Source: Earliella scabrosa
Taxonomy: Eukaryota; Basidiomycota; Agaricomycetes; Polyporales; Polyporaceae
Assembly: GCA_022605405.1 (NCBI GenBank)
Contig: JABYQQ010000001.1
Location: 1-64,000, forward strand
Reading direction: 5' to 3'
DNA: 64,000 nucleotides
The stretch's first letter is position 1. Each line of letters begins with the position of its first letter. Below, in pieces: positions 13,889-43,129 of the stretch. The notes under the pieces were generated by a model. The model worked only from the letters and a program-made list of their open reading frames with translations. It was not told the DNA's origin and ran no database searches. A program made the position numbers and the translations under genes.

Positions 13889-16800
13889 TGCCGCATTCTA
13901 GGCGCAGCGTAATTACGGTAAACGCTACCTCGATGTGCCCTGTGTTCCCCTTGTCAATTTGGATACAGCCGTTGTAAAGGATCACGTTAGATAACATACA
14001 TACGATCCACAATATCTGAGTGGGTAGCGTTCGCGACGATGAAAGGAAGGACTGGAGATCATACAAGATGTAGCACGACCTCCACATACACCAGCTGTAG
14101 GACAGTCGCTGCGGTCTTCAATCTCCGACTGAACATGCTCCCCGCGTTTCATTCTCCGACACTGAAGGCGACCGTAACGCGTCCCGAACACTCATCTATC
14201 TGTTGACCCCACCACAACCAGTAGCATACGATCACAAGCCACAAACCTCGAGCATGCAACCCCTTTCACGAACATAACGCGTATTCCGCGAGCAATTCCG
14301 ATCAACCTACCCCTGTCGGATCACGCGTCCATCACCACGTCTTCCACGACCAACCGCAAACCACGAAACATACTGCAACATGTATATACACACCCATACA
14401 CACACGGGACCAGCAATTGTGTCTTAGAAATGCCTCCCGACGGACTGTTCAGAGCAAATATGAAATCTATGCAGCGACCACAGGCGAACAAACAACCGTA
14501 ATTACTGGCACCCTGACCACGTACATCCGTTCGCCCGTACAGAACTCGATCTCAGATACCACTCACGCCTAACGCATACAACTCTATAGAACGAACGGGA
14601 AATCGTCCGAGGGATCCAGTCCGCTCGTACTATACTGAGGCCGGCCTATCAAACGAGCCATCGATATAACTTCAAATCCGGCACCACCAACCTCCGAAAT
14701 CAGACCGCACAGACCAACTCGCTTCCTAACCAGGTGACACTCCACCAACACTATATCGTCGCGCACAACAGAGGAGACCGGTACGCGCTTCATCGCATGC
14801 AATGACTTGTACTCCGCAGTTGCATCAAATACCCCATAGAACGGCTGTCCGGTGCATCAACAATCGGCATAGAACAGTACGTCATACTGACTCACCGACG
14901 CACGTGGCCCACAGTCAACATTATGAACAGCTTCAAACGTACGCCCGTCGTTACCTGTACGCTCATATCAGTCATATGCGCCAACGACAGTCACCCACAG
15001 CACATACCGCATGGCGTCCCATACACGAGCCCACACGCAGCTAGACCACTTACGTCTGCCGGACGGAGAAGCTCCAACGACACTGTAAGGTCCGGCATCA
15101 CTGCACTCTCTCGCACTTGCCACACAAGTTGTCGCACGTATCCAACCGCCCAAACACGCAACGGCCGGTTCCACCAACACACCGTATCAGTGAAATCGTG
15201 TTTCGGCGTGCGCGGACCCCAACATACTTCCGGCGGAATATGTGCCAACGCCGCAATAGCGCATGGCCGGTTCTGAAAGTCCAGAAATCCCGCCACGCGC
15301 CTTCAGAAGCTACTCAGCATCAACATAGCGCCGACATACAACCATCACATACCTCACATCCCCATCAGTAAGCCACCGACGTCTCGTACAAATATTTTCC
15401 CGTTCGCTGTTCTCGTCGGCACTATAATCTCACACAAATTTTCACAGGCATCAGTATCCCGCTCAACGCAGACAACGTCAGCACTCACGAAGGACTGGTA
15501 TTCTCGTCGGTTTGGTCCCTGCTCCTCATCCTTAAAGTGAACCGTTCACCTGAGCCCTGACCACACACCGTACGTCTATACTCACCGCAGCCGGTTCTGT
15601 GATCGAGGGCGAACCATTCAAAACAGTCGGTATCAACTGGACCGATACGATCAAGGCACGTTTCCTGTTTCAGTCCACAGGCCGTACTTATACCAGCAGA
15701 GACGCCATACGAACTTCGAGACTATCTGTTTTTTGTACCCTCAACCGTTGCAACCCCACGATATTCAATAATCCCCCACACGACAATCCCCTCGTCCACG
15801 CCCAGACCGCCACGCATGCCCCCTAGAACGGTCGCACAGCCTCTGCGCGCTTAATCCAGGACGCGGTCCAGACACGCCCTCGGACCGAAACTCGCCTCCA
15901 AGCTCCATATCCAATCATCATTAAAGCGCATATATCCTGATGACACCGGGACCCCCGCGCGAACCTCACAACAGCCCTCGCGACAACAGCTCGTACAGCG
16001 TCCATATTATCTACTCACTACGCTAACCGAACCTCTCCGCACCCATACCACCCATCACCCATCCCACGTTCGCCACCCTAGCACACACAGCAAATACCGC
16101 CGGGCCATGTTATACGACGACAATGATGTAAGCACCCCATACACATATCATCGTTCGCTCCCTCGTACTCACCATAATCCATCCCCTGTCCGTATACCCC
16201 AATCCACGTCCCATTCTTGTTCAAAGGCGGCTGATGCAGACAGCCCGATCGTCGAACACGCCGGCGCACCCGCAGCCAACTTGTGTCCGTACGTAGTACC
16301 AAACCCGCACCAAGCTCTAGCACATGATACAAACCCGGCCTACACTCAGCACTGCAGTACACCTCCTCTGCGTCACGCACTGATGCTGGTGCTCCCATCC
16401 CACACCAGTAAGTATTCAACGATGAATTGCCATCGCCATAGCCACTAAGTTGACCACCAGATAAACCGCATCTGACACATATCCGCTGCCACACCAACCC
16501 CGTGAACCCATGGGCGCATTGCCGAATCCCTGACCTTACCATGTATTTCCCCCAAGGAAGTGCATCCGTTGTCATTCACCACGGGCACGACGCTACACCC
16601 CTTTACGCACCTCTACAAGTCCATTACTGCCCGGCCTCGCTGTACATGCCCGACACGAACTCCTCCATCATTGCACTCACCGGACAAACCCAGGGTCGAT
16701 TTGCAACGACGGCAGGTTGTGTCGTTGTTATGAAGTACGCTAATGCACTCTGCAACTCATACACAGACATCACGGAGCACGACGTAGATCACATACGGGC

Positions 16801-17420
16801 ATTCTTCAGCACCGCGCCGTAACTGTGTGCGCACAGAACGTTCCGCGTATACAACCACCATGATCAGTACACACATACGACCACCAATACGGAGACGATA
16901 CGTAGAACATATACACGCACCAGTATGTCACGATATGTAGAAAAGCACGATGAATTCCGATCACAATCATTTCGAACCCACACCCTACTAGTCCGTCCGA
17001 CAGAGGAGTACAGAGACGACATCTGCCATGATATAAACAGTTCATCGAATGTCCCTCGTTAATAACATGGCCACCGCACCAGCACACCGCCCTTGAAATC
17101 ACTACACTTTCTGTAGCATGTCACATCACCGTCAATGCATAACGCTCTCGGGCTGTACATGTCCGATCGCGTACTGTCGGCATTATCACATCCTACAACA
17201 CTCGCCCACTATTCATAACCGTTCGCATACTCAGCATCCATCGGCAGTACCAGTTCGCATACATATCGACAATACCGGTTCATATACATACGGGCTCGTC
17301 TACGCGTACGCTCAATCAACTCGCCGTCCGTTCCGTCCGCACTTCCAGGGCACAAATACAGCGTAATCGAAGGCTTCTCGCGATACAGTCGGATCGATGC
17401 CACATGCCCACACGTACCTC
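13889..17420. other. 3.5-kb stretch with few open frames and strong C/A strand bias
   Basis: No supported gene. The plus strand from about 14,190 to 17,400 is visibly rich in C and A and poor in G (CCACAACCAG, ACACCCATACACACACGGG), producing only short open frames. I see no tandem repeat or terminal repeat. It may be a decayed element or transcribed non-coding DNA. Confidence 0.4.
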
Positions 17421-18341
17421 TCATCCGCAAGACGTTCGCCGCGACGCCACCTGATCCAAGGCTTCCTTGACAACACGCATCTGAATCTCAGTGAGCACGC
17501 CTTTGGCGCACAACTCGATCAACCAACCGTCCCGCGTTGACATGCGTGCAAAGACACGCAGGTACGCCTCATCCCTGATTCCCGACTGACGGAAGAGCTC
17601 GGCAAGCCGGTGAGCATCATCCCGAGGCAGACCCACCGTAAGCAATGTCTTCAGCATCGGGTGCTCAGGAGAACAAGCAACGTCGGCCTTTTCCCGGGAC
17701 CGGCCCCCTCCGTCGGAACACCCGGACGGCGAGTGCGATCGCATTCCTGCCCTTCCAGGAATCGCCACGTACGCATTGTTTGACCCGGTCTTGAAACCCG
17801 GGGAGTTTCCGCGTTTGCTTCGCTCCCGCACTTTACCCGAAGGACCCGCACCTCGCAAAGGCGGTGAAGAGGAGCGCTGCGTGTTCAGTCAAGCAATGGA
17901 CGAAAGGCGCAAGTTAACGTATACCACACCTGCCGCCCAACACGGGCATCGACCCGCACGGCATGGGAAAGATGACACTTCAGCTGCATCTTCAAATACG
18001 AGGTGACCGGCCACGCGCCTTCAAACTGGATGAGGAACGACAGTTTCTTGAAGACCTAAACACAAACTGTCCAGCATTCGCTAGTAGACAACAATACAGG
18101 TACTCACGTCGTCCTTCACAGCCTTAAGCTTGGCAGGACTTTGCTTCCTATACGCGACATTCGAATTGATCCCTCGAGCCGCACACGACTCACGAATCGC
18201 CACCTGCACGACCAGTTATCAATAGTACCTTAAAGACTGCATGCGAATCAATGCACTCACCAGCATCGCCTGAAAGCTGTCACCACAGCGCTCCATACCC
18301 ATCTGCTCCTGCAACGAATTACCATCCGCCGGGTCCGCCAT
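17421..18341 (-). CDS. Orphan agaricomycete protein with helical C-terminal domain
   Basis: Four exons (18341-18261, 18203-18108, 18055-17930, 17876-17421), all with GT...AG borders and matching phases, give 252 aa. It starts MADPADGNSLQEQMG. The middle contains a Trp-Pro-Val motif (FEGAWPVTSYLKM) typical of an agaricomycete-restricted family I know only as hypothetical. A low-complexity basic linker (KVRERSKRG) precedes a C-terminal all-helical segment (LLTVGLPRDDAHRLAEL, ...RVVKEALDQV) that resembles a SAM-like helix bundle. The exact exon fit and absence of stops argue for a real gene. Function unknown. No mobile-element terminus is visible next to it. Confidence 0.65.
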
Positions 18342-19575
18342 ATGGATACGTCGTGGCATACGCCGCGGTTCTGCAACGAGGTCTGCGCAACGGACGCGGG
18401 TCAACAATCCCACAACACGGTAGAATCACAGAACGCACCCAGCATCTGAGCGAACACGAAGGGGCGTACGAGACCACAGTGGAGGTAGTGGACGAAGCGA
18501 GAGCTAAGACGCAAACGCCTAGAGCACGCCCAGGCAGCACCCGTTCAGGTCTGGTCACATGACCTGGCCCCCCCTCCCGAGCACGGACCACCAAAAACGG
18601 TAACCCTCAACCCCATTGACGTCATATACACGTGCTAACCCGGGGCCAGACCTCGGTAGCGCCCACAACTCATCGTCCGGCCATCGGACGAGTCGCCCGA
18701 TCCCATCATTTCCAGGGGGGACTGCCCCAAAAGGCAAGTCAAGCCGCTACCTAATACAGTAGTTTCTACCCCAATTGGACTAGCACGGAGGCGGTGCACC
18801 AGATTTGATGCAAAGATTCGTCATTACTCGTCTGAAGACCTGTCCACTGATCGTGTCCAGGAATAGACTCTATTTCGGTCTTCGCGTACCGACGGAGAAC
18901 GGATTCAGATCATTCAGAAGAAGTCAACCTACGTAGAATTTCCAAGTGTAATATTAGAGAACTGGCTGGCGGCCCGCGAGACTAAGTATAACATGGATGG
19001 GGAATACAGAGAAAGGCTTGAGGGCCATGATGCTTGAGTTCCAATACTGAGCGCACACTGATATACGGTCCGTATTGTTTCAAACGATGCGCATATAGCC
19101 GCACACAGCATAAGACATGTAAGTGGTCGAGTCACAACCGTGCCTGTCCTGGTAATTGACGTCCCCACACATGGACGAAGGAATATTCGGGTCTGGGATT
19201 GAAGACGTAATAGACGTTCACGTAGATGGGCACTTCACAGCCTTCCCAACGCCGAGCGCGCGAGGCGTAGAAGACGCTTGCACTCCTGTCTATGTAGGAC
19301 CGCCCTTCGGATCAGCCGAGGATCCCATCAGGCGTCCTTTTTTTTATTTTTTGGCGGAGCGCAGATTGCCCACACCCGCAGTCGTCCCGAGGGCACATCA
19401 TGCAGGTGGTGGGCGCGCTGACACCTGGCCATACGCTTGCACGTCGGCTAGGATGTTATAGGATTCGAGATCGTTCAAAGCACGTTACCGTTCGCCGCGA
19501 GGAAATGCCTTTACGCACTTCTGTGTGGGACTCGTTTGGGGGAAAGATCACACAGGCACGCCCGAGGGCCGCCCA
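18342..19575. other. Intergenic, no supported gene
   Basis: Contains a T-run (19338-19352) and short open frames on both strands without motifs. The region just before 19576 is downstream of the LINE fragment and may be its 3' UTR. Confidence 0.4.
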
Positions 19576-20214
19576 TCACCTCCCCCTTTTAATACCCACT
19601 AAAACCCCGCTGTCCAACACCCACTCCGGTGGGAGGTCATTGGTATCCAGCACTGGTGCCCACACCGCTGCCACTCGGTCGGCATCCAGAGCCCCAGCCC
19701 CCAGCCATTTAGCTGCGGACCGTCTGTCCAGATCAAGTCTACGGTCCATGGCGGCATACCATCGGTTTGTGACCTCCGCCTCCGTAAACTCCGTCCCTTC
19801 GTTCTGGATCACCCGAGTGCACCGCAACTTCCAGATCAAGTGCAGGGATTCGGTGCATAGGATCGACCAGAGCTCTTCCGCAAGCGGGTTCCGAGCGTTA
19901 CCCCGCTCTCTCCGTATAACCACGCATTGCGCGCCGAAAGTTGTTCCCCACATCGCTCCCTTCCATTCGAAGCCTGCGGACTCCCAGGTCTGTTTCAGCA
20001 GGGACCAGACCAGCTCCTGCCCTACGCATTCGCAGTCGAAGAAGATGTGGGTCGGGGACTCGACATCCCCGCAAGTCGCACATTGTGCTCTCGCCTTGAG
20101 TTCGTCTGACATTTTTTCAATTAGCCACCTCGCGCCGACCATGTATCCGTCGTGTATCATCAGCCAGAGGAACTGCCTGCCGTCCTTGAAGGCGGTATCT
20201 TCCACTTGCAGCAC
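19576..20214 (-). pseudogene. LINE-type reverse transcriptase C-terminus (zinc-binding domain), 5'-truncated
   Basis: The 212-aa frame has the layout of the domain at the end of many non-LTR reverse transcriptases in mushrooms. FLWLMIHDGYMVGARW is followed by a CCHC-type knuckle: AQCATCGDVESPTHIFFDC contains C-x2-C, then H and C. A conserved Trp-rich helix (HLIWKLRCTRVIQNEG) and RNRW-like NRWYAAMDRRLDLDR follow, and the end is VLDSGVLVGIK, a typical last motif. The reverse transcriptase and endonuclease domains are not found upstream, where the frame breaks after about 20,214-20,380, so this is a 5'-truncated copy. Confidence 0.75.
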
Positions 20215-22680
20215 GAGACTGGCTGCTATTCCTTCCGAGCTGCACCGGGGCCCTCTTAGAGCGGGCGATGGCGGCGACCAGCTTCACATTGATACCGGTT
20301 ATGCTTGTGCGTGTGCCGTGTATGCGAACGACGTCTGGGAGGTCGCTGGGGTAGATGTATGTCAGAGCAGAGTCTTGCAATACGACGCACCTTCTGACTT
20401 ACAACAGACTGACTCGACCCTTGAAGCGTCATCCCGGTACGTGGACATGCGCGCGTCCAGCACGTTCATGTTCAGTTTATCCCCTGGTACGCGCAACAAG
20501 CATGTCAGCAAACATGTCCTGTGCCATCGAGGAGTCGGTGCAGAGGAATGACGTTGACAAGTCAGATGCAGAGGAGAAAGAGTGAAGTCGAGACTCGGAT
20601 CGCACTGTGTAGCTCATGATGGGAGATCATGCGTGTGCATGCTTTACTTCGTCCGAGTAATGCTGATGCCCGCCTCAAATCTCGTCTGGCTTGTACAGCC
20701 AGCCGCCGACATCCGACAGCCATGGATGCGTGACATACATCTCCCGTGGACCGGCCTCGCGCGCACCAGCAAAGACAGACGTCCCCGCCTCCGAGCTTCT
20801 CAGGGTCAATCAGAATCATCGAGCGTACGGCCGTGATGCAGAACTCGACGTCGGGCGCCAGCTTGTGGCATGTCATTGTGGGAGTCTGACGTGCGAGCTT
20901 GCGTGGAGGTGAGCGGGTACACATTGTGGGACGGGCTCGAGTACGAGGAATGGAGTGGGCCGTCCGGGAAGGAGACATGTGAGACGAGTGCGGAGAGGTT
21001 GAGGGCGAGAGGTGACGCGTACGCGCCAAACGAAGGGTTGCTACGCCAGGAGCGCGTTCAGGCGAGCGCGATTGATGCGGGGATGCCGATGCTCAGGCGG
21101 GTGCCCGACGAGAAGGAGGTCTGATGTGCTGATTGAAATCGCACTCGTATCTGTGCGGGATGACGTCGACAGTAAACAGAACATACCTGCGCGCACACAC
21201 TCTGGCACGTACTGCTCGCCCAAGAAGGCGGAGAGCCCGTTTCTGGAGGCTCGATTGCGCTGTTTCGCGCCTCGTTCGGGTTGAACTACCTGCAGAGAGC
21301 ATGACGATCGTGATAGACGGGGATATCGGTCGACGGCGTGACTAATACATCGTTCTCCTCCGTAGATCCCGGCGCGGGGCGCGATGTTTTGCTTGAGATA
21401 CGCAACGTCAGTCAGCTGGCTCTACGTCTTCAATCCGTGGCGCGTCTACTTCATGCTCATACATAGCGTCTAGACAGGAGGACGCATCAGGACTACCGAT
21501 TCGTGAAGTCCAGCAACTCCTGCCTGCAAGTCGAGGTCAGCACATCCCTAAGCGGAACGGGGTGCGACAAACCTAGTCCACCCGCCGTGCCGTTCGGGTA
21601 CTGTCCGCAAGAAAACACCGTCGAGTACACTCGCCACACCTGTTGCAAGTTCTGCATTGCTGCCCGAGGAGGTAGAGGAACACGAGCGGAAATCATGCCG
21701 AGTTTGCAGCTGATCATGTTTGGTATGTGGCGTCTATCGCGAGAGCATCACGTCAGAACCCGAACTTCAGAGCCTCGCGCTGTAGCACAGGGTTAGGGAA
21801 GAGCGAGATTGACGGACGGACAGAGACAAACTCACCGCGGCCTGTACTCCGCTTGTTACATGAACGGTACGCGTGCGATCCTGACGCAGTACTGCGTAGG
21901 CGGCGAGCATGATCGCCGGGAAGGGAGGGCTGAGTTTGAGGTGGCACAGAAGGCAGCCGGAGATCGACCACCACAGAGCAAACGTCTGCCATCCATCGGC
22001 CGTTGGCGGACGGCACAACGGAGGAGAGAGAAGTGTGGTCGAAAACTGGAGGACCCACCGCGTTGATCATCCTCACGGCCTTCATAGACATCCTTCATGT
22101 AGCATCATTGCAACAGCACGTATCGGCCATTCCGATCCCGGGGGTCTCTCAAGTCCAGGAATTCCTGCGACCAAGTCGATGTCAGCACATCTCCAATGAG
22201 ACCTCAGCACCACGCACACGAACCTGGTCCGCCCGCCGCTCCGTCCTGGTACTGCCTGCTAGTGCAAGCACGACCACGAGGTACACCTACTCGAAACTGT
22301 CGTCCAGGAGTTTCAGTTCCCGAGTTCGAACTCTTTCATGTATTGATGATGCAGACTTCCGCCAGGTCGCAACTCCGCCCGATGATCTCGCTCTCCGCAA
22401 TCAAGTTCTGCCGTCATCACTCATCAAATTCTACAGTAGTCATACCACAATCTACTCTGTGCCACCCCGAGCCCCCTCTTCACTGTCATTCATGGCAAAC
22501 TCTACAAGCAATACATGAGCACGTACCCCATCTCACAATCATCCCTCTCTCAAGTGAATGCGCAACTTCCCCAGCCGGGCGTCAGGATGCCATCACTCCG
22601 TAGTACTACGCGATCCCAGAGCGCCCGTCGCCACCGAACCTCCTAACTTCCACCACACGGAGGACCAAACTCTTCATGGC
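20215..22680. other. No supported gene; contains a diverged internal duplication
   Basis: Many short overlapping frames. A segment near 21,498-21,640 (AAGTCCAGCAACTCCTGCCTG, then AAGTCGAGGTCAGCACATC and CGTTCGGGTACTGTC) recurs diverged near 22,146-22,300 (AAGTCCAGGAATTCCTGCGAC, AAGTCGATGTCAGCACATC, CGTCCTGGTACTGCC). The copies could be remnants of a duplicated minus-strand gene, but no motif identifies it. Confidence 0.4.
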
Positions 22681-22957
22681 ATGGCCCAAGTCGTGATCCG
22701 AAGGCGCCAGTCCTCGGCGGGCGCAAGTCGAGATCGGCGGGCGCAAGTCGTGATGGGCGGGCGGAAGTCCCAACGAGCGGGCGCAACTCGAGATTGGCGG
22801 GCGCAAGTCGTGATGGGCGGGCGCAAGTCGTGATGGGCGGGCGGAAGTCATGATGGGCGGGCGCAAGTCGTGATGGGCGGGCGCAAGTCGTGATGGGCGG
22901 GCGGAAGTCATGATGGGCGGGCGCAAGTCGTGATGGGCGGGCCCAAGTCGTGATGGA
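22681..22957. repeat. 20-bp minisatellite, about 14 units, with 60-bp higher-order period
   Basis: The unit is GCGCAAGTCGTGATGGGCGG with a recurrent variant GCGGAAGTCATGATGGGCGG every third copy, giving a 60-bp higher-order repeat from 22,801 onward. The first units (22,681-22,800) are more diverged. Open frames of 120-122 aa on the minus strand (repeating PSRLAPAHHDLRPP) are by-products of the 60-bp periodicity. Confidence 0.9.
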
Positions 22958-24092
22958 TGGCAGTGCACCTCTTTCGTCGAGTTGTCGATATGTCGAGGAT
23001 CCTCTCACCACACAGCCACCCGAAGGCTATCAGTGCGCCGAGTCCCTACGACGTCATCCGTTCCCAACGCTCCATAGCTAGTAACTTGCCGAGCCATGGC
23101 GAACCCCTTCCCTCCTGCACAACACTTTTGCACTGTCGTCCCCCCGAGCACTCACCTCCATCCCCAATCTCACGATACGCACGTGCGCCTGCAGCCAGCA
23201 TCTTCTACCATCACAAGCCAGAGAGACTCAGAGCACTACTCGTCCCGTCCGAGTCAGCGCATTAACCTGTCTAGGTATTGCACTCCAATTCCCGAACACC
23301 CCTTCGACTACACAGAAACAACACATCCACGGCGTTTATCCCAACTTTCTGATCTTCCGATATTAACCATAGTCTATCCATTCACGATGTTTCCCTCCCC
23401 GCGTCGCCAAACGTATATATCTCGCACAGAGCTACATCGATGTGGGCACGCACGGAGATGCCTCGCGTTATGAACCACATTGACTACGCACCACCGCCGG
23501 CGGCAAGGCCCACGCACACGATCATGTTCCACATGACTGCTAGCTCGACCCGCATACCTCTAGTATCTGTGCAATAATCTTCACTTGAAGTGTCCATTTC
23601 CCCTTCAGGTTATAATATTCACTCGAACGGTTGGCACACTTGTTATGGACTTGGGCTCCAACTTAATGATAGGTCCCCACCACGCATTCCCTACTCCCTT
23701 CCAACAGTTGGGCAACACACGTTTATTCAGGTCAATCGCGGTCTTGTCCAAGCCGCCAGAGCAACTCCTCCCGCCTACCACTTTCCTAACCCGATCACTG
23801 CGCGCATACCCCAGATTTTCCACTCTTGATACACAGCTCTCACATCGACCTCAACACAGTCGATCACGTCTGTCACTTTAACATCCCATTGAACCCACCC
23901 CAGTACGCGCCTCAGGTGACAAGTTCCATCCTCCTCGCAGAGTTCGTAGACCACAACACCGACATCATCTCCCCGTAACTCTCAATATAGATCTCCTCCA
24001 CTCATAATATTCTCCCCTCTGACCAGATCTACTCCGCCTCTCCCGACTCTGCTATTCCCTCGCATGCATGTACGTGCTCCCTGTCTCCCTCT
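22958..24092. other. No supported gene
   Basis: C/T- and A-rich plus strand with short open frames lacking motifs. Lies beyond the 3' end of the small minus-strand gene. Confidence 0.4.
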
Positions 24093-24383
24093 CTAAAGGT
24101 TAGCTTTCAGTCGTCGAGCTCCTGCAAGCCACAACATGCTATCAATCCATCGGGTCGCGTCAGGCTTCAAAACGTTGCGCGTACCGGGACGGGTTTGTCC
24201 AATCTTCCGGGCTCTAGCCCTCTCCTCCATTATGAGTCGCAGTTCCTCCTCGATAAGGCGTTTTTGTATCATCTGCCGCAGCCGAATCAAGGTCTTAATC
24301 TCTACTCTCGCGGGCTGGGTTACCTCTCGCTCAGAACACTCTGAAGTTCAACATCAACGCTTACCTGTAGCGAACATCTTCAT
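24093..24383 (-). CDS. Small basic helical protein (putative)
   Basis: ATG at 24383 (MKMFAT), a GTAAGC...GAG-AG intron and an exon reading to 24093 give a protein of about 72 aa (VEIKTLIRLRQMIQKRLIEE, then LRLIMEERARARK and TRWIDSMLWLAGARR). It is strongly helical and basic. I do not recognise it. It lies about 200 bp downstream of the H3-tail/PHD gene on the same strand and could be a separate small gene or a decayed exon. The open frame and fitting intron are the only support. Confidence 0.35.
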
Positions 24384-24584
24384 GTCTTGCAAATGGTTGG
24401 ACCTCATACTTGTCGTCCAGTGCTAGGAGTTACGACAATCAGGCAGGGTACGGGCACGCAGTGTTCTAGCTCCCAAGCCGCGCTCCCTTCCTTTAAGCTC
24501 TTCGTGCTCCTCATGGCGCTAGAATGACGAATTGGCATTGCATGATTCCACGACGGCTACACGACATATCACCAACCCGACGTA

Positions 24585-26487
24585 TCACGACCCTACAACT
24601 CGAGCCAGCCAATGTCCGACCTCCCCATGCTTCACCACTCTGACATCAGCTGGTTTGGGATAGATGCGACGTTCCTCGCACCGTGTGTTCATGCACGTAG
24701 TCGCGATGGTCCCCTTGTCAAGCTGCTTGCATCGCAGGGAAGCCAAGGCCCCACATCCAGGGCACTGTAGCGGCAGGTGTGAGCCCCAAGGCCGAATCGT
24801 CGGGTGAGACCACGTGTACGACACGCAGCGATAGGATGACTTCTCCCCCAGCGGCTCTCCTGATCTGTTCATCATGAACACGGGCGTGTGTCGCGCCACA
24901 TACAGCGCGCTCGAGAGCATATCGCCGATGTGCGACTCATCGAGCGTCACCCCCTCGATGTACGCCTTGTGCACGTACGCCACGAAAAAAGGAGTCGTCA
25001 GAACCGCCTGCACCGCAGTCGCTCCGAACGCTAGCAAGGTTTTCGCATTCATTCTGGGTAATCACCGGGTCAGCGGGCTTCATACTACTGAGGGTCCCAA
25101 ACTCACCGTGCTGCGCACACTTTCAACCGATCAAACTTGTCCTTATTCGCCAGGAGGCCTCCGCAGCAGACGAGAGCGAGGGTCACCTCATGGTTGCGCC
25201 CAGCCCCGATCAACCTGTCCGCCATCACATCATTCCACCACTGCACGGCGTCAGTGCCTCTATCGTCTACGTGTCCCAACTCATCACTCACCTCGTTGAT
25301 GTCGCACGATGACATTTGGTGAGCGTAAAACAGATCTCCCGAGCCGGCCTCCGTGTGGGTATATATGAACACGAGGACGCGCGCCCGCGCAAACCTGGGC
25401 ATGATGAGTAAAGATCGACATTCACTCATGTTACTCACCTGTCCAGGACTCGCAGAGCATTGTCGACCGCCGCCTTGTAATCCCTAGATGCTTCGCGAGA
25501 GGTGATGTTGTATGGCGCGTCCACCATTACAAGGTCACCGCCCCGAGGCCCAACGTAGTACCCCTCGAGCGTCGAGTGTACTACGAGCGCAGGCGTGCCG
25601 GCTTCGTTCAACGAAGCCAGGCGAACGTGCACGATGACCACGGGGGATGTGTTCACTCGCGCGTGGTTCGGCCGGGAACCCTCGCATTCGACCGTCACCC
25701 CTTCCGGAAACAAGGGCACTCTCTGGCCAGAGGCCAGAGAGTATAATCCCTATCCCCGACGTTAGTGTCTCTCATCACACATATGCCGGCACTCACATGA
25801 TACGGACGCGGGCCTGCACTGCGTCTATCCTCCCGGATATGACATGACGGACAGAGGAATTCCAGGGACGCCAAAGTCTCGGCGCTCAGGGTGCGCACCA
25901 CGGGAATGTGTTCGTAGCACACCACCCGCGGACAAAAGTCGCATGCGATGGTGTCACCACCGTTCTGGCACTGGTAGCAGAACTTTCCCGACGTCAGCTA
26001 TGGCGGTCATCAGTTGCGCGAGGATGCGACGTCACACACCTCGTCGCTCGCGTCTGCCGGCACATAGGTCCCATTCGCCCGATCCACTACGCTCACTGCC
26101 GCACCCCCCTTGCTGCTGGTCTTGCGCGCTGGAGGCATTGACTTGCGTTCGTCCCGCCGCTTGGCTACACATTCAGTGAGCCGCTGAGTGAGCGATGACA
26201 CAGCGGTCCCTCGACAGCCCGTACACACCTCGTGCGCCCGATTTGGCACCTGTCTCCGACGGCGGCGCGCCGGCCTTCACGCGCTTGACCGACTTAGGAA
26301 ACTTGTCGGCTAGCGGCTCGTCGTCTGAGCTCTGGGGGTCTGCAGGGGGAGGAACGGCCCTGGAAGTCGTCGATCCTGTATGCTAGCCGTCAGTCAACGT
26401 CTATTTGGCAGGCAATCACGCACCAAGTGTGGCTCGAGGGGCCGCCTCGCCAGTAGACTGCCGCGCAGTTTGCTTGGTGCGCGCCAT
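24585..26487 (-). CDS. Histone H3-tail mimic / PHD finger / caspase-like protein
   Basis: Eight exons (26487-26424, 26375-26229, 26164-26040, 25997-25797, 25722-25439, 25394-25292, 25240-25107, 25053-24585) with GT...AG borders and matching phases give an intact 508-aa frame. Residues 2-13 are ARTKQTARQSTG, the histone H3 N-terminus except K9 to Q; G13E, K14A, K18A and Q19T also differ, while A15, P16, R17 and L20 match. A Ser/Pro and Lys-rich linker follows. Residues 113-165 form a canonical C4HC3 PHD finger (C119, C122, C131, C134, C139, H142, C161, C164) with the GGDxIxCDxCPR signature of PHDs that read unmodified H3K4. Residues about 190-385 resemble a caspase/CHAT fold: strand VLVFIYTH (H287) and strand LALVCCGG (C333/C334). 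The C-terminus has a CPGC...CMNTRC ribbon. It sits directly downstream of the KDZ transposase on the same strand. The peptidase assignment is inference. Confidence 0.8.
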
Positions 26488-27186
26488 CCAAGGGCGCGGA
26501 CGAGGAAGAACGGGTGTCGAAGGTGCCTACTGGCTGGCGGAAGATCGGAGGCGCTCTCTCGCCCTCCGGTCGAGCGTTGATATATATGCGGAGCCGCCCC
26601 AGCCGCCGGTTCGAAACCCGGCCCAGCCGACCGGTGCGCGGCTCCCTCTTTCCTCATTCAGGGCCACCCACCTCAAGCTAGCGCGCACTCAGGCTGGTGC
26701 AATTGTTAGTCAGTTCCAGTACCACGTACACCCTGCCCCGAGCGATGCGAAATGTCTACGATGTGACTATTTTTCCCGTGATGGCGCTGTCTCTGATGCT
26801 ATTCCCCTCGCCTGGCCGCAGCATACGTCAACGTTGCCACCCGGGCTTCGTATACTTTGGACTCACCTCATGAATGTCTGCTGGAAAAATACTTTGGGCT
26901 GCGTCGAACAGACGAATCCAGCGATGGGCTTGTCTGTCGCGTGCTCTTCATCAATCGCTGCACCATCAGCTTGCAAGAGTACGCACCTCAAGGCAAATAC
27001 AGTGGCTCCCATCCTGCCCCCGGTCTTCTCCACCGCCGCCCGAGCCTGCCAGACTCTCGCATTGTTCATGAAGAACAGCAGGGTACTGAACATTTCCTCC
27101 CTCTTCAGATATACCTCCTCCTTCCAGCGTGCCGCGGCGGCACTGCATCTAAACCAGTGCGCTCGAGAATCTGGAGCTCGCGTCGG
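26488..27186. other. Intergenic between KDZ transposase and H3-mimic gene
   Basis: About 700 bp that should hold the promoter of the minus-strand H3-mimic gene. A GC-rich inverted repeat lies at about 26,590-26,648 (GGAGCCGC ... GCGGCTCC around AGCCGCCGGTTCGAAACCC). No terminal repeats that would delimit a KDZ element were found. Confidence 0.4.
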
Positions 27187-30100
27187 TTAGGTCGTATCCT
27201 TCTCCCGCTCAGCCCACCTACGTTTGATCATGTATCCTTTCACGCCGGACTCCATGTCTTTACTAAGGACTGACAAGTCCGCCCACAACCAACTCCTTTG
27301 CGTCCGACTCTCACCGCGCTTGCGATTTTCGCCCATGGTTTTGCAGTCATCATCTGTGAGTTCTCGCAATTTGGGGTCGTCGGTTCCCAGCCCAAGCAGC
27401 AACAGGATGTCTCGCAGGCGGCGATATTCGTCTCGGGCTTTGTTCGCCGCCTTCTGATACGTCTCGTCCAACTCTCTGATCCGCTTGCCGTGGGCTTGAC
27501 CCGCTCCTTGCTCGTCCAAGTCCTTCACGCTGTAGCGCGCCATAATCTGTAGTCGTAGGTCGTCCAACGCGTCGTGTGCCTGGCCTTCCCTTAGCCTGCG
27601 TTCGATGAGGACCAGGGGAGTCATCGCCGTATGCCGTCTTATCAGAGAATGGTAGAGGGAAGGTAGGTAGATGTCGACCTCATTGACCTCTGCGACCAGT
27701 GCCAGGAGCATAGTATCTCTCAGGACTGGACGAACGGGCGCTGCACGCGCTGTGACACCGCATCGTGCATCGTCAGCCGGCTCTCGCCATGGCAGACACG
27801 TCGGCACCGCCGAGACTGGCCCCGAGTCTCGGACGTCAGCCCTGCATGAGGCTCCCGGCTGGGCTGCTCTGTCTGGCCCGTGGTCCTCAGGCTACGTCAT
27901 TGCATGAAGACTCAGCGCTGACCGGATGTCGCGGCGACGTATTCTGACTCACCGGCGTCGCTTGCACCGCAGAGCTGGCTGCTACATTGTGATACGCCTG
28001 CGTGACGATCGGGTTCACATAGCGCCCGTAGATGTCGTGGCAGATCTCCGCTTTGCTCACGAATGCAGCTACGCGCGCGGCCATGGCGGAACACTGCCTC
28101 GCCTTCGTGGGGTCGGTTAAGTATATCTTGTCGAGCAGGTTGAAGCTAGTCATGAGGGTCACAACGTCAGGACGGCACTCAGGTCTCAGAGGTGTCGTAC
28201 ACACCGTTCTCGCTCAAGATCCATCATTCCTTCAATCGCACCGACTAGCTCCAAGCTGTAACCACCTATCTCTTGTCCATGCGGGGTTTTCAGCACATCA
28301 CTCGTCGCCATTTTCGACAGCACTGTTGATCCTGGTTCACAGTCCGCGCGCTAACAGAGATCATACGCAACGCACCGCTATCCTTTGGTGTGACGAACGG
28401 ATTGTCAAGGGTTTTATGAGTCTTGATGTCAACTACCTTGGAGAGCCACTCAGCCTCCTCGCGCCGCCATTCACATAGCACTTGAAGGGGGATGCCTTCT
28501 TCGATGCTGTTCAAATATTCCTGCGCCAACGTCCACTGCTTCGTCGCTTCCTCGTGTTTATGTACGAGAGTCTGGGCTGCATTGTGAGGTCAAGCAGGAG
28601 TCACCGCGTGAGTCACCAGCACGTTGTCGTTACCCACCCATATTGTGCACGTTCCGCACATTCAGGTCGGACAGCAAGTCATTCAGGAAATCGTGTCGCG
28701 CCCCCGACGACATCTCTCGGGAGCGCAGCGCGGCGCGGTTCGTCTGGTTCCATTTGCGTTCGTTGGTCTCTCCGTCGTATTTACCACTGCCCGGTAAACA
28801 ATTCGGCGATTGAAACGATTGGCATTGCTCGCGATGCGCATACTGGTGGAACGCAGGCACGGCTCCTTGAATCTCCGGCAGGTCGACGGTGTGAATAGAC
28901 GTCATGTTGACAAGATGCTGGTCCATATGTTTCATGCGGAGCGGGAAGCGAACCATGTACTGACAGTTGACGTCGTAATACTGCTTGAACAAGGTGAGGC
29001 GGATGTAGGGCTGAGTTCCGGAGACCACGGCAAAGTCGACAATGTATGCTCTATGCCACTACCATTCAGACAGATCTCGCTCGCTTTTGAGTGGGCTACG
29101 TACTTCTCGTTGCTCACCAGGTCGATGATGGATTGCGGGATAATCAATTCATGACGACACGATAGCGCGAGGATGCCGCTGACGGGATGTGTGTAACCTC
29201 CAGGTCCGATCGCCCCGAACTTGTTGCAGGTTGACTCCTACGACCCACCCCCAGGTTCGGTTCAGCCACGGGATGTATCCATGATGTATCGTCATAAAAT
29301 TCAAATAGCACACCTCCGGAGGCACCTCTCCCATGGCGCTGACGTACTTGTGGAAGTCCAGCTCGTTGGCAAAGTACGCGGCACCCAAGCTCAGCGCAAA
29401 GTCGTTGGGGTCCATCCGCTTTTTCCGCTGATGTTGGTGATAATTACCATCTATGGCGTAAAACAGCGCGTCGAGATACCTTCGCCACCCATCGTTAGAC
29501 AGGGTGACCTTTTGGCTGAAAGGAGTACGCACGCGTATTGGCGGTCCCGACGCTCCCATCCCGGACGCATGTTCATTCCCGGCTGGGGGCACGCTGGACA
29601 AAGCACCGCCAAGCTGCGAGAGGGCATGGTCCGGCTCGGCACCTGTCCGCCGCGTTTGCAGGCACGCAGGAAGGAGAATTCTCGCATGGAAGCCATGAAC
29701 TCTCGATATCGATCCTGTTCGGTGAACGCTTAGTTGAGATACGTCGTTCCATGCACTACCACAGATGTACGCACTGGCACGTGTGAACTGTCTATGTTGT
29801 CGGTGCAGCGGGTTAGATACGTGTGGAAATCTTGCGCGCTCACGTTCGCTTGCAACGAGAGGAGATGATAGTCCTTCATCACGTTCAAAGTAAACGCAGT
29901 CCTCGGGGACGTCCAAGTGCCGGGATACAGGCCCAGACGTAAGAGCTGAATGGGCTCGGGCGTTTGCAGTGTGGTCGTCCATCGGTGTTGGCTGTTCGAA
30001 GGAGTGGCCGTGGCGCGCAATTCGCTATGGTCCCCCACCGACGCCGCGGAGAGCGGCGTTATGCACTCGCAGAAACTCACGGGGATTTTGTGGATTCCGT

Positions 30101-30259
30101 GCTCGTGAACGATGACCATCCGGCGTGGCGCGCGGGAGATATGTGGGCAGCGGTTCCCCTGGTGACCCGTGTACAGACGTAGTCCCACCGCCTCCGCGTC
30201 CACCTTTTGCCAGAAACCGTGTTGATGGTCCCATAACAGTATGCGATGGAATGGTACAA

Positions 30260-30266
30260 GGGCGTG
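30260..30266. repeat. Target-site duplication, left copy (GGGCGTG)
   Basis: GGGCGTG here and at 33177-33183 flank the palindromic element exactly. Keeping one copy restores the KDZ reading frame. Confidence 0.9.
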
Positions 30267-33176
30267 CACCAGTAGTTTCCACTTTTGTATTACAAAACAC
30301 CAGTACCCTGGCGCAATAATTATTAATTCTGTGGTGCATTGTAAAACCATCCTGTACTACAATGAGCTATTGTAGTACAACCCTCCAAGCATTATAAAAC
30401 CCACAGGGGGCCAGGGGATATATTACAGCCTCTCCATTATAAAACCCCCTTGTTTGTTGTTATATAATGTACTCATTGTATAATGACCTCTCAGTGGTTA
30501 TAAAACTCCGCATTTATAATGAGAGGACACATATTATAAAACCCCTGGGTGATTAAATCGTTGTCGAACCATTATAAAACACCCCTAGAGCATCCAGATT
30601 AGATGATTGTAAAACTGTTATAAAACTTGCTATCATATCAGGCTGATTAGATGCTTGTATATCCATTGTAAAACTATGATCTAGATCATATGACTGATGG
30701 CACAGAAGCTTATCTAACGATCTGGGCGCTTTTTTGACGCCCAAATGCGGTAATGGCTGGTATGGGGGGGTTACTGACCTGCCCTATAACTCCCTCAATA
30801 CTGCACCTATTCCCATGGATGTGGGTGCAATAGATTCGCATTTTTATACCCTATCAGATGGTGCAATGCTGGGAATGATTGATGGACTAATGGGGCAGCT
30901 ATGCCCTGAATACTCTAGCAGCCCCCTAGCCAGGGGTATCTCTTGCCCTGCTTTAGGGTACCCAGGGCATCTATGCTCATGAGCAAAATGCCATCTCATA
31001 GGGATACCCAAGGGCTACTGAACGCATTTTTGTTCAGTGTGATACATGCAGTATTGATGGAGATATGATGTATTTCATTTTCGCAAAAAGTGGCCACTTT
31101 GTTTGGTCCATTACTCGGGTACCCCTGGGTACCACACGACGCCGTTACCATCATTGGGTAGGGATTACGGAGGGCGTTCGAACGGTATATTATACACCCC
31201 AAACCGTCCACCTCCACCCACCCTCTCCTCCTGACCCCCTTCCCATCAATCCCCTCATATATCCCTTTAGGGGCATCGGATCAGCTCGCAGTTTTAGATG
31301 TATATACTAGACATATATTACAGTCTGTTCTGATAATATGACATGCCACAATTATCTACACCTTCCCAGTCATAGCAAACAATTTCTAGCATGCACATTA
31401 CATGTTCCCTCTATATCTCGGGAACCATATCACCAATTGGCAAGCGGTCTTTTTCAGTCTGTCATTATATAGTAGAGCTACTTCTGTATCAATTTTTATC
31501 CCCCAGGGATATGTGGATCTGTCTGCATAATCCTATCAGTGGTGAACAAAGATAACCACTTGGTATTAGATCTAGTGTGATGTACACCTTCATATGTTCA
31601 GATAGAGACCTCCTAAGTGGTCTGTACTGGATGCAAAAGGAATTATGGGAATTGGTGGGGTACTTGTGGTGATATGGCAAAAGAGGTGCTGGATGGCCAT
31701 TTGTGAACTCTGCACAGCACATGCAGCTGCACTATTTACACAACTGCCTCCCAGCACATCTTTTAGCATATCGCCACAGGTACTCAACCAATTCCCATGA
31801 TTCCTTTTGCATCCAGTACAGACCACTTAGGAGGTCTCTATCTGAACATATGAAGGTGTACATCACACTAGATCTAATACCAAGTGGTTATCTTTGTTCA
31901 CCACTGATAGGATTATGCAGACAGATCCACATATCCCTGGGGGATAAAAATTGATACAGAAGTAGCTCTACTATATAATGACAGACTGAAAAAGACCGCT
32001 TGCCAATTGGTGATATGGTTCCCGAGATATAGAGGGAACATGTAATGTGCATGCTAGAAATTGTTTGCTATGACTGGGAAGGTGTAGATAATTGTGGCAT
32101 GTCATATTATCAGAACAGACTGTAATATATGTCTAGTATATACATCTAAAACTGCGAGCTGATCCGATGCCCCTAAAGGGATATATGAGGGGATTGATGG
32201 GAAGGGGGTCAGGAGGAGAGGGTGGGTGGAGGTGGACGGTTTGGGGTGTATAATATACCGTTCGAACGCCCTCCGTAATCCCTACCCAATGATGGTAACG
32301 GCGTCGTGTGGTACCCAGGGGTACCCGAGTAATGGACCAAACAAAGTGGCCACTTTTTGCGAAAATGAAATACATCATATCTCCATCAATACTGCATGTA
32401 TCACACTGAACAAAAATGCGTTCAGTAGCCCTTGGGTATCCCTATGAGATGGCATTTTGCTCATGAGCATAGATGCCCTGGGTACCCTAAAGCAGGGCAA
32501 GAGATACCCCTGGCTAGGGGGCTGCTAGAGTATTCAGGGCATAGCTGCCCCATTAGTCCATCAATCATTCCCAGCATTGCACCATCTGATAGGGTATAAA
32601 AATGCGAATCTATTGCACCCACATCCATGGGAATAGGTGCAGTATTGAGGGAGTTATAGGGCAGGTCAGTAACCCCCCCATACCAGCCATTACCGCATTT
32701 GGGCGTCAAAAAAGCGCCCAGATCGTTAGATAAGCTTCTGTGCCATCAGTCATATGATCTAGATCATAGTTTTACAATGGATATACAAGCATCTAATCAG
32801 CCTGATATGATAGCAAGTTTTATAACAGTTTTACAATCATCTAATCTGGATGCTCTAGGGGTGTTTTATAATGGTTCGACAACGATCTAATCACCCAGGG
32901 GTTTTATAATATGTGTCCTCTCATTATAAATGCGGAGTTTTATAACCACTGAGAGGTCATTATACAATGAGTACATTATATAACAACAAACAAGGGGGTT
33001 TTATAATGGAGAGGCTATAATATATCCCCTGGCCCCCTGTGGGTTTTATAATGCTTGGAGGGTTGTATTACAATGGATTATTATAGTACAGGACTGTTTT
33101 ACAATGCACCACAGAATTAACAATTATTGCACCAGGGTACTGGTGTTTTGTATTACAAAAGTGGAAACTACTGGTG
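30267..33176. mobile_element. 2.91-kb near-perfect palindromic (foldback) element
   Basis: The segment is one inverted repeat. Every landmark on the left arm recurs reverse-complemented so that positions sum to 63,443, placing the centre between 31721 and 31722 with essentially no spacer. Outer ends read CACCAGTAGTTTCCAC and GTGGAAACTACTGGTG. The arms are about 1.45 kb and nearly identical; visible differences are mainly near the outer ATTGTA/TTATAA region and in the central about 60 bp. The outer 400 bp of each arm carry many copies of ATTATAAAAC or ATTGTAAAAC, likely subterminal transposase-binding repeats. No protein is supported; mirrored small frames on both arms are incidental. It is inserted in the KDZ zinc-cluster exon with a 7-bp target duplication. 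Confidence 0.93.
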
Positions 33177-33183
33177 GGGCGTG
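33177..33183. repeat. Target-site duplication, right copy (GGGCGTG)
   Basis: Second copy of the 7-bp duplication, immediately after the right end of the palindrome. Confidence 0.9.
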
Positions 33184-33923
33184 GACCCTGAGAACGCAGG
33201 CGTGGCATAGGTGAGGCATGCTGAAGCAATCCGAGCAGCGCCATCGCCGGTGCGCTGCCTCTGTCGACCCTCTGGGCACTGGCAATTCGTCGTTGCAGAA
33301 TCTACATCGGTCCCCGCCTACCGGAGGCAGTTCATGATTCAGGAGCTCCGCGAGCGCCGCATGGGCATGCTTGTCCATGAACTCAGCATTGCGCACGGAG
33401 GGAGGCTTGGAGGGTTCGAAGTTAGCCAGGTGGTAGGTACGCGGGTACTTCTCGCAGCACTCACGATCGTGTTGTTAACTTTGGGACGGCGCTCGCCATC
33501 TTCGGTCGACGGCATCGTTGCGTCTGGGCCGCTCGTCGTGGCTGATGCTTGCACACCTTGGTTCGGCTCACGATCTGCTCCTTCGTGGCAGTCACATGCC
33601 CCCGATATCGTGTTGGACATGCCAACGCTGAGCGCGGGAGAACTCCTCCCTTGTTCCCCGCCATCGCCCAAGGTGTGTGGTTTGAGAACTTCGGGTGCAG
33701 TCGCATTCGCGGCAGCTCGGTCCTGTGAAAACTCGCCCGCCCCCACTGCTCCTCGATTTACTTGGGGAGGTTGCGGAGGTCATCTCGCCATCTGCGTCGA
33801 AATCAGCCGGCTTCGCTTGCGCGCATTCATTGTAGGCCCGGTGCCTAGAACGTCTTCCAGTGAGAAGTTCCCCGGAGTCTGCCTCTTCCGCTTCCTAGGC
33901 GAAACGGTATTCGAACTTCGCAT

Positions 33924-35760: not shown

Positions 35761-37836
35761 GTGTCGGGCATTGATTGGCCCGCAGTCCCGCTTCACTGTT
35801 CGCCAACCGATGGCCGAGTCGCCGCTTGGAGCGGCGACAACCATCATGTCATCACTACGCCGAATCAAGACTGGATCCCGCGTTGTCCGCTCCCAAGTGA
35901 CCCAATCCGGGCCTATACCGACGGCACGTGGGGGTTGCACGAGTATTCCCGATGGCCCCAGTTTCTAGCCCCCGACATGTGGCACGCTGCTTGCATACCA
36001 CGTCGCCCTGCCGAACCTCACCTCGCACGAATTTTGTGGGTTTTGCTGGACCCCGAGCGTGACTGGATTGACGCGCGGACGAAGGGATTTGGAAGGGTCG
36101 GTTTTCTGTCTGACACGGTGCAGGAACAGTTGGTGCGCGCCGCGCGACACGCGCTTGCGTGCACGGATGCTATACGGGACGTGCCATCACACCACCGCGC
36201 CTACCTTCGCGAGCTATCGCTCGTGCTCTATCAATGCATCGAGCGCATGCGTCGCCTCCCCGCGCCCTCTGCCACCGCCGTGTCTCTGGGCGCACACATT
36301 CAAAGACTCTGTCTGGAGCTGCTCGGCCTACATACTTTCCTCACAGTAGTCCTACCTCGCTTGCAAGCGCAAACCGACTGCACGTGCGAAATGTTGCCCG
36401 TCATCGGGGTTTTCGTTAGGTGCGCGGCCGACGCGCAGACATTCGCGCGCGTCGGGGTGCCCACATGGCTGCGACAGCCTCTCGGTGCCTGCCCTCGTAT
36501 ATGGCGGGTGGTGCCGATGTGCTCTCCGACCGCATTCAGCCTCGATGGATCACCACGCATTCTAAGACCTATTGGCCAGATAGGTAATCCGCAGCAGGAC
36601 TGGGTTGGCTCGATGGTATTTGCTATCAGTCGCCAGCTATGCGACTCGCACTACCCGCGCCTCCCCTCACTTTGTACGGATCCAGACTTCAAGCGCGCCA
36701 AGATGATGATCATCACTCCGACCCTGGTATTGCCCTCGCAACTACCTCGGGCCTCCCGACAATCTGCATCCGCTACTCTCCCCTCGTCCTCGGCCGCCCA
36801 CAATCCCTCCACTCGGCGCGATGATCCCGTCCTCGTCGGCCCGCCCACCATGCATCCGTCTCGTGAACACGTGGCGTCTCCTTTCTACCGCGTACCTGTG
36901 GTATGGGCTAGTGCGCTGCGCTCGTTAGGTCGCCTTCCAACCCCGCGACACTCCGTCGCGTACTTCTATCCCCCCCCATTTCTCCTAGACACCGTATGCT
37001 CCGCGGCTCCACTTCCCGTTCAGTGGGACCACGACAGCTCGCCGCGAGAAGACGACAAGGTCCCACGTTATCTACACAATCTAACGCGCATTCGAGACTA
37101 TTGTCGAATACGCTTATTGGACTCGAGCTTCGCCGGCCGCCCACTGACAATTGCCGAATGGAGGGCGGCTCTTTGGGGCGACTACTGCGACAAACCCGAA
37201 CCATTGGTGCGCGGATCAGCAGGAGAACAACGCCGCGCGAAGCGCAAGCATCACGAGAAGTCAGCGATCGGACGCCTCTTCGGCGAGGATGCGTCTTTGG
37301 ACTCTTACAGTGTGTCCGACATCGCGACCATGGACAGTAGACCAGTCACGGCGGACATGGCGGCCACCAGTCCCTGGGTGCGCATGCGCCATCTCTGGGA
37401 GTCCCATGAGATCAATTGGCGCTGCGAGGTGATGGCCCTCGACGCCGTCATGGTGCCTCGGGACGACTGGTCAGTCGTCCATAGGTGGGCTCGCGAAGCG
37501 CAGGTCTCGGCAATCTGGGGTCAACCTTCAGCTATGATGAGCGTTCTGCCCATGATACCATCAGAATTGCGGACCTTCGCCTGGCGGAGTCCGCCCGACC
37601 CGAGCTGGACCGAGAGTCGTGCGCGACTGGCCGCCTTCGTCGGCATCATCGCGCGTTGGGAGGGCTGTCCAGTCTATCTGCGCAGAGTCATTGAAAGCGA
37701 CGACGACTGGAGTTCGGAGGAATACGAGACCATTCAGACCTCTGCCGCCACCTTTTACTGTCAAACATTTGTACGCCACTTCCAACGACTTCCAATAGTT
37801 CCCATACAATTTCCCGAGCATCTCCTGTATTCGTAG
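35761..37836 (+). CDS. Large orphan protein (691-aa frame), agaricomycete family
   Basis: One open frame of 691 codons. The first codon in the frame is GTG, so the real start is probably in an upstream exon, perhaps after the CTAACAG acceptor at 35752. Recognisable family landmarks are DGRVAAWSGDNHHVITTP, LRPIGQIGNPQQDW, FYPPPFLLD, RYLHNLTRIRDYCRIRLLD, RPLTIAEWRAALWGDY, LWESHEINWRCEVMALD and a C-terminus around YCQTFVRHFQRLPIVPIQF. The protein is soluble, Trp/Arg-rich, with a Ser/Pro-rich linker near residue 340. I know this family only as hypothetical proteins scattered in agaricomycete genomes, often near mobile elements. Function unknown. Confidence 0.75.
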   Translation: MSGIDWPAVPLHCSPTDGRVAAWSGDNHHVITTPNQDWIPRCPLPSDPIRAYTDGTWGLHEYSRWPQFLAPDMWHAACIPRRPAEPHLARILWVLLDPERDWIDARTKGFGRVGFLSDTVQEQLVRAARHALACTDAIRDVPSHHRAYLRELSLVLYQCIERMRRLPAPSATAVSLGAHIQRLCLELLGLHTFLTVVLPRLQAQTDCTCEMLPVIGVFVRCAADAQTFARVGVPTWLRQPLGACPRIWRVVPMCSPTAFSLDGSPRILRPIGQIGNPQQDWVGSMVFAISRQLCDSHYPRLPSLCTDPDFKRAKMMIITPTLVLPSQLPRASRQSASATLPSSSAAHNPSTRRDDPVLVGPPTMHPSREHVASPFYRVPVVWASALRSLGRLPTPRHSVAYFYPPPFLLDTVCSAAPLPVQWDHDSSPREDDKVPRYLHNLTRIRDYCRIRLLDSSFAGRPLTIAEWRAALWGDYCDKPEPLVRGSAGEQRRAKRKHHEKSAIGRLFGEDASLDSYSVSDIATMDSRPVTADMAATSPWVRMRHLWESHEINWRCEVMALDAVMVPRDDWSVVHRWAREAQVSAIWGQPSAMMSVLPMIPSELRTFAWRSPPDPSWTESRARLAAFVGIIARWEGCPVYLRRVIESDDDWSSEEYETIQTSAATFYCQTFVRHFQRLPIVPIQFPEHLLYS

Positions 37837-42873: not shown

Positions 42874-43129
42874 ATCTTCATGGTGGCCACATGTTCCGGC
42901 CCCGGGCTACAGGTGATAGCAACCGTCTCGATTACCGCTTTACGCCGCATGTGTATCTAGATATGTGATAGATTGCATACAGTATGTTTGCGGAGCCGAC
43001 GTGCGAGTAACCACGCCTTGGCATAAAGCCTGGGTTCGCAGCTGACGCGACACCGCTCCCGGCGCCAATCGTGACCTTCGGCATGACATATAAACCATTC
43101 CCTTCATCGGTCCCAGCCCGTGTGCGGCC

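Follow-up and report, generated by a model that had tools for sequence, protein, structure and literature searches.

Histone H3-tail mimics with a PHD finger and a predicted caspase/CHAT-like half in Earliella scabrosa, some of them linked to a KDZ transposon subfamily

The window analysed here, positions 1 to 64,000 of contig JABYQQ010000001.1 of the basidiomycete Earliella scabrosa (assembly GCA_022605405.1), contains a gene whose product begins with a copy of the histone H3 tail and continues into a PHD finger and a C-terminal half with a predicted caspase/CHAT-like fold. Because no histone fold follows the tail, the remainder consisting of a linker, the PHD finger, and an alpha/beta domain, the window protein is a histone mimic and not a histone. 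The gene belongs to an undescribed family of 13 loci in the E. scabrosa genome. Codon comparisons show the H3-like tail to be under purifying selection in most copies, since codons 2–8 combine a synonymous difference (pS) of 0.71 with a nonsynonymous difference (pN) of 0.017. Some copies lie in recurrent linkage with one subfamily of KDZ transposons.

Reality, conservation, and selection of the H3-like tail

The ATG at 26487 of the reverse strand, where the DNA reads ATGGCGCGCACCAAGCAAACTGCGCGG..., encodes MARTKQTARQSTGEAAPRATL. The protein starts ARTKQTARQSTGEAAPRATL and is identical to H3 at 15 of the 20 residues after Met, as read in the initial annotation of this DNA. The intact eight-exon frame described there was also recovered, with all seven introns GT-AG and the spliced frame open, although the model yields 517 amino acids rather than 508 (Table 1). 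A degenerate DNA pattern for ARTKQTAR matched once in the window and never in 100 shuffles. Across the whole 51.7-Mb genome, a 23-base pattern for M-ARTKQTA gave 11 matches and its reversed control none; three of the 11 are histone H3 genes (C4:1663k, C9, and C20) and eight are members of the mimic gene family. With the family profile, H3 chains are matched from their first position onward (best E 5e-6), and a single search with the whole-family profile retrieves histone H3 and PHD fingers of the type reading unmodified H3K4 together. The locus C12:1042408 likewise opens with MARTKQ (MARTKQQNV); it was considered as a second mimic and rejected, not being a family member. Such a start would favor chance or an annotation artefact as the source of the tail. 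That explanation, to which we assign practically no likelihood, is already excluded by the 11 genome matches against none for the reversed control, by the same start in two other genera, and by a pN/pS of 0.024 over codons 2–8.

The 13 loci, established by genome search and spliced models, are W (the window), C1a, C1b, C2a, C2b, C2c/d, C3, C4, C10, C11, C17, C18, and C27, with C2c/d representing a single copy divided by an insertion. Full tails are present in nine (W, C1b, C2a, C2b, C2d, C4, C10, C11, and C17). The C27 tail has decayed to MAGTQQTARRSCG, and the C3 start is lost at an insertion edge. Given one frame break each in the models of C1b, C2b, and C27, damage to the nearest paralog of the window gene is probable. 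In other species, MARTKQTARQSTG is found in Dichomitus squalens P0005 and Ganoderma leucocontextum P0006; thus the ARTKQTAR start, whose presence in homologs the initial annotation had left to be checked, recurs in two other genera and in most family loci. Database relatives comprise seven proteins, six with the tail, the seventh (P0003, on the C3 contig) starting within inserted sequence; the window protein itself is not among these matches and is therefore missing or modelled differently there. A profile search returned the same seven proteins and no further species, and a tail-only protein search (residues 1–40) gave one match from five candidates and missed P0005 and P0006, making it uninformative on other lineages. 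These protein searches reach relatives that share exact words, and the range of the family given here extends to those only. At G000:C2:962238-968697, an insertion divides a 99.7–99.9% copy of the C2a mimic gene; its two 580-bp ends are identical and the junction shows a 5 bp overlap, as expected of a long terminal repeat element.

Conservation was tabulated over ten distinct full tails (W, C1b, C2a, C2b, C4, C10, C11, C17, P0005, and P0006), the set excluding C2d, which is identical to C2a, as well as C27, C18, C1a, and C3. A1, R2, T3, K4, Q5, A7, S10, T11, G12, P16, R17, and L20 each occur in all ten, T6 and A15 in nine, and R8 in eight, with Lys in the others. K9, G13, and K14 are each found in two of the ten, Q19 in one, and K18 in none, so that, of the three lysines described earlier as replaced in the window protein, K18 is replaced in all ten tails, and K9 and K14 are each retained in two. 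Family-wide, 14–17 of the first 20 residues match H3. For all pairs pooled across the eight genome loci among these, which are not independent and leave C27 and C18 outside the pool, codons 2–8 gave pS 0.714 and pN 0.017 and codons 2–18 gave pS 0.773 and pN 0.156; synonymous sites approach saturation in most pairs beyond C10/C11 and C4/C27, and ratios there are not meaningful. The C10/C11 pair encodes the same protein over 17 tail codons at a pS of 0.42, and its ratio of nonsynonymous to synonymous substitution rates (dN/dS) is 0.50 in the linker and 0.11 in the PHD finger plus body. Between C4 and C27, the decayed pair, tail identity falls to only 59%.

In all eight loci compared, a donor-like GT comes one base after codon 21, with the aligner picking another donor in C1b, C17, and C2a. 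Inspection by eye found no intron common to mimic tails and H3 genes, which neither demonstrates nor rules out that the exon was captured from an H3 gene; H3 genes are split near codon 13 (C20 and seemingly C7) or near codons 31–33 (C4 and C9). By the same inspection, the H3 genes at C4:1663k, C9:1051k, C20:521k, and C7:675k differ in first-intron position, and those at C4 and C20 read AAKSQARKTAA, one residue over the usual length.

PHD finger and predicted caspase/CHAT-like half

The PHD ligands of the window protein are C119, C122, C131, C134, C139, H142, C161, and C164. Their order is an unusual C4-C-H-C2, in which the customary H-x2-C pair at ligands five and six is swapped to C-x2-H, and the initial label of C4HC3 is corrected accordingly. 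All eight ligand positions, the GG, and the CDxC are unchanged in each of the 12 aligned sequences; C2b, outside this alignment, has lost one Cys. PF00628 matches 11 of 12 members at E ≤ 0.1 (best 1.2e-4), the window segment reaching 15.3 bits where the cut-off is 24. Compared with solved structures, the PHD profile matched CHD4 (1.5e-9), TRIM66 and TRIM24 (both 1.5e-6), and TRIM33 (1.4e-5), and more weakly PHF21A (4.6e-5) and AIRE (3.7e-3). CHD4, TRIM24, TRIM33, TRIM66, PHF21A, and AIRE are readers of unmodified H3K4. The mimic PHD, compared by sequence alone, has the CxxCxxGG....CDxC core in common with these fingers, whereas its C-x2-H at ligands five and six departs from their H-x2-C. Kinship with readers of unmodified H3K4, suggested at the outset from a short signature, is thereby borne out at the level of profile matches, above all to CHD4, TRIM24/33/66, and PHF21A. 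The PHD fingers of C18, its twin C3, and C1a read CCLCQNGG, and those of the other nine loci tabulated and both foreign proteins read CYxC; this feature of tail-poor loci may reflect shared ancestry or co-evolution of tail and PHD.

In the C-terminal half, all 12 loci tabulated retain His296 and Cys343, as do P0005 and P0006. Predicted strands at 288–294 and 335–343 place the His and the Cys each at a strand end, and we infer that the two form the catalytic pair. Fold searches returned SAVED-CHAT, Tce1, caspases, MALT1, and C11 peptidases, whose fold the body may share and which also have a His and a Cys ending two strands, and on this basis the half is predicted to be caspase/CHAT-like. Identity between the body of this putative peptidase and these proteins is 4–15% in the rows shown, with low Foldseek template modeling (TM) scores. 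The top match in a viral fold library was a pithovirus caspase (E 5e-3), with none at 0.001, and Pfam scans of whole family proteins gave no family above cut-off and no peptidase match. A zinc-ribbon-like segment near the C terminus keeps its QCxxC in 12 of 12 loci tabulated; zinc-ribbon matches were obtained only in relatives, all below cut-off.

Linkage to a KDZ transposon subfamily

The gene directly upstream of the window mimic was identified as a KDZ transposase by PF18758 (E 2.2e-21 on two joined pieces) and by block-by-block matching with four other loci. Genome-wide, PF18758 matches 123 times at E 1e-5 or better, a total in which some loci are counted repeatedly. The window KDZ query isolates a subfamily of 12 loci (at least 52% identity in pieces; next match 41%), 10 of which carry both query parts. 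Five of the 13 mimic loci (W, C1b, C17, C18, and C1a) lie immediately downstream of a subfamily KDZ gene on the same strand, and for the four whose start is known, the last KDZ match ends ∼0.4–2.1 kb ahead of the mimic gene. The KDZ neighbor noted in the initial annotation is thus a recurrent partner, and genomic position links some mimic copies to one KDZ subfamily.

An alternative, which we regard as somewhat improbable, is that the mimics form a host gene family rather than transposon cargo and that KDZ genes are merely nearby, for example through accumulation of both in one set of dispensable regions. Consistent with this, eight of the 13 loci have no subfamily KDZ directly upstream: a copy lies 21–26 kb from C10, C11, and C27 and 66 kb from C3, the two partial KDZ copies on C2 are 16–36 kb away, and none of the KDZ matches falls within 150 kb of the C4 gene. 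Conversely, C31 holds a KDZ copy with no mimic gene found on its contig. Trees were built from 10 KDZ rows and 13 mimic body rows, with several deeper forks open, and C27 is discordant between them, its KDZ copy being an outlier with C31 and its mimic gene grouping with C4, C17, and C2b. In addition, element ends bounding the KDZ/mimic pair were not found: a scan for terminal inverted repeats (TIRs) with 8-bp target-site duplications (TSDs), pairing 15000-24580 with 37831-52000, returned no match (three shuffles gave 0, 1, and 0). Against the host-family explanation, however, all five immediate neighbors come from the one 12-locus subfamily among 123 KDZ matches genome-wide, and all are upstream on the same strand. 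Random placement would give at least five of 13 with p 8e-14 (12 loci) or 9e-9 (all 123 matches), clustering being ignored, and W pairs with C1b, and C10 with C11, in the KDZ and body trees alike. The scan is uninformative because Kyakuja elements have no TIRs, a 7-bp TSD, and CA..TG ends, such that missing TIRs are expected (PMC12730594).

Gene A stands divergently beside the KDZ gene in 10 of 10 full loci of the window subfamily and beside several other KDZ genes, and may be a standard second gene of these elements. The window KDZ gene is interrupted at 30267-33176 by a 2.9-kb near-perfect palindrome (1431-nt arms, 98%) that ends CACCAGTAG...CTACTGGTG and is flanked on both sides by GGGCGTG. 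A 93% similar stretch abuts the break of the C3 mimic gene in exon 2, the twin C18 being uninterrupted. The end of the C18/C3 duplication was examined as an element terminus, and no inverted copy was found.

Possible functions and relation to known H3 mimics

The reading that we tentatively prefer, while holding it short of probable, is that the mimic is a KDZ-transposon-associated, chromatin-directed caspase/CHAT-like protein whose H3 tail serves as ligand or pseudosubstrate for its own PHD finger or protease. Removal of Met would expose an A-R-T-K end, which would be bound by the PHD finger of the same protein, in cis or between molecules, and the distal tail (S10–L20) would occupy, or be presented to, the protease domain. 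The enzyme might be kept inactive, or in assembled form, until it encounters competing nucleosomal H3 whose K4 is unmodified, or until its tail is itself modified by K4 methylation or T3 phosphorylation. Once freed, it could work on chromatin to the advantage of the KDZ element, perhaps as a clipper of the H3 tail. A self-referential form of this proposal, in which the H3K4 methylation state of chromatin or of the protein's own tail switches a caspase-like protease and the KDZ lineage thereby escapes silencing, appears to us rather doubtful.

Several observations weigh against the preferred reading, among them the discordance of C27 and the missing element ends described above. The initial annotation had reasoned that homologs with the PHD and peptidase-like parts but no H3-like start would refute its own interpretation, and two of the 13 loci are of this kind. 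In the frame-intact paralog C18, the tail is reduced to ARTK, and C1a, also frame-intact, has no recognisable tail; both retain the PHD ligands and the His/Cys pair despite tail loss. Because these two copies keep the PHD and peptidase parts, some copies evidently do without the tail, although selection maintains it in most. The models of C1b, C2b, and C27 contain one frame break each. The PHD profile ranks ZMYND11 (5.7e-4) and NSD3 (2e-3) over AIRE. Two AlphaFold models, built on eight sequences, have a mean predicted local distance difference test score (pLDDT) of 67 and 65. In these, the first ten residues are drawn as a helix at a mean pLDDT of 35 and 32, a very low confidence at which the modelled tail gives nothing for self-binding. 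Foldseek TM-scores are low (0.20–0.26 for SAVED-CHAT), and the second model ranks azoreductase (5.9e-4) ahead of SAVED-CHAT (8.4e-4). Finally, the tail is conserved out to L20. PHD fingers that read unmodified K4 contact a shorter stretch than this, and because the conservation exceeds that contact length, the selection behind it may come from an outside partner. Conservation to L20 could be explained by a protease domain that sees the distal tail as a pseudosubstrate or by partnership with an outside H3 enzyme.

The latter leads to a decoy function, the chief competing explanation though somewhat unlikely in our estimate, in which the tail is shown to host H3K4 enzymes or readers (of Set1/COMPASS, KDM5, or LSD1 type) that are titrated or recruited, KDZ escapes silencing, and the PHD finger in the same chain is not the main partner. 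Conservation over residues 1–20 (including S10–G12, P16, R17, and L20), with K18 never kept and K9 and K14 mostly lost, would fit a K4-directed partner on a long stretch better than the PHD alone, and the fast evolution of the linker between tail and PHD is also consistent with a decoy. A precedent is the engineered CHARM, in which an H3 tail fusion recruits and activates a chromatin enzyme via a domain reading unmodified H3K4 (PMC11875203). However, a PHD finger of matching class is present in the same chain in aligned members and would be superfluous for a pure decoy.

It is quite improbable that the tail instead acts in tethering or localisation, letting the protein accompany H3 chaperones or importins or recruiting the KDZ transposase to chosen chromatin, with a separate role for the caspase-like half. 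Compatible with tethering are KDZ linkage, the abundance of Lys/Arg in the linker of the window protein, and a recurring acidic motif of SSDxEPL-like sequence (window protein residues 37–43, in 8 of 12 loci tabulated, the rest of the linker being fast-evolving). H3 chaperones bind the histone fold, though, which is absent here, and K14 and K18, which belong to the import region of H3, are mostly lost.

To our knowledge, no natural protein joins ∼20 H3-tail residues at a free N terminus to a domain from the corresponding class of H3-tail readers. SNAG-type and viral mimics (SNAIL and GFI1 with LSD1, influenza NS1, G9a) are short H3-like peptides that recruit H3 enzymes or readers, some of them internal or C-terminal, in contrast to the 14–17 of the first 20 residues equal to H3 in the mimic family. 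PAF15 engages H3-handling machinery through a short and partial H3 likeness and is a small PCNA-binding protein with no known reader or protease in its chain and no known transposon link. Like the mimic, PAF15/PCLAF, described with UHRF1, is a natural non-histone protein with an H3-like N-terminal sequence (PMC7060239). In CHARM, an H3 tail at the N terminus of a non-histone protein (H3 tail-Dnmt3l) engages a domain reading unmodified H3K4, as proposed for the mimic; H3 residues 1–12 were sufficient, and a K4-to-Ala version brought no gain (PMC11875203). CHARM, however, is man-made and targets the ADD domain of another protein (PMC11875203), whereas the mimic is natural, selected, and in one chain with a presumed reader and a predicted caspase-like domain. 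Among the literature matches listed, none named the mimic family or a protein joining an H3 tail with a reader, and none joined Zisupton with a PHD finger or, in fungi, a CHAT domain with a PHD finger.

KDZ (Kyakuja) transposons carry TET/JBP dioxygenases that are read as anti-silencing (PMC12730594), and in both cases KDZ is linked to a protein acting, or presumed to act, on chromatin or DNA marks; the cargo there is a dioxygenase, whereas the locus described here encodes a histone-tail mimic with PHD and predicted caspase-like parts. The KDZ link makes the mimic a candidate counter-silencing weapon aimed at histones, parallel to the TET/JBP genes that KDZ elements carry and that act on DNA. 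The H3K4 readers, writers, and erasers have been studied in detail and peptides cost little, which makes binding by the mimic directly testable, with the tail-poor paralogs as natural controls.

Table 1 Features of the mimic gene and its KDZ neighborhood in the window
Feature	Position	Strand	Comment
Whole mimic gene	24585..26487	(-)	8 exons, 517 amino acids
Exons 1–4	26487-26424, 26375-26229, 26164-26040, 25997-25797	(-)	
Exons 5–8	25749-25439, 25394-25292, 25240-25107, 25053-24585	(-)	
H3-tail mimic, Met + residues 2–21	26425..26487	(-)	exon 1 = 26424-26487
PHD finger, residues 119–165	25839..25979	(-)	C4-C-H-C2, inside exon 4
C-terminal half, residues 180–517	24585..25749	(-)	exons 5–8; predicted caspase/CHAT-like domain
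His296	25357-25355	(-)	
Cys343	25165-25163	(-)	
C-terminal zinc-ribbon-like segment, residues 459–487	24678..24764	(-)	CxxC, then 2 more Cys
KDZ transposase gene	26866..33408	(-)	directly upstream of mimic gene, same strand
Gene A	35836..37833	(+)	divergent neighbor of KDZ gene; 694-codon open stretch

A tRNA scan of the window from 20 to 40 kb found none. Tandem repeats lie at 22683-22956, past the 3' side of the mimic gene, and their frames read a PAHHDLRP-type repeat.
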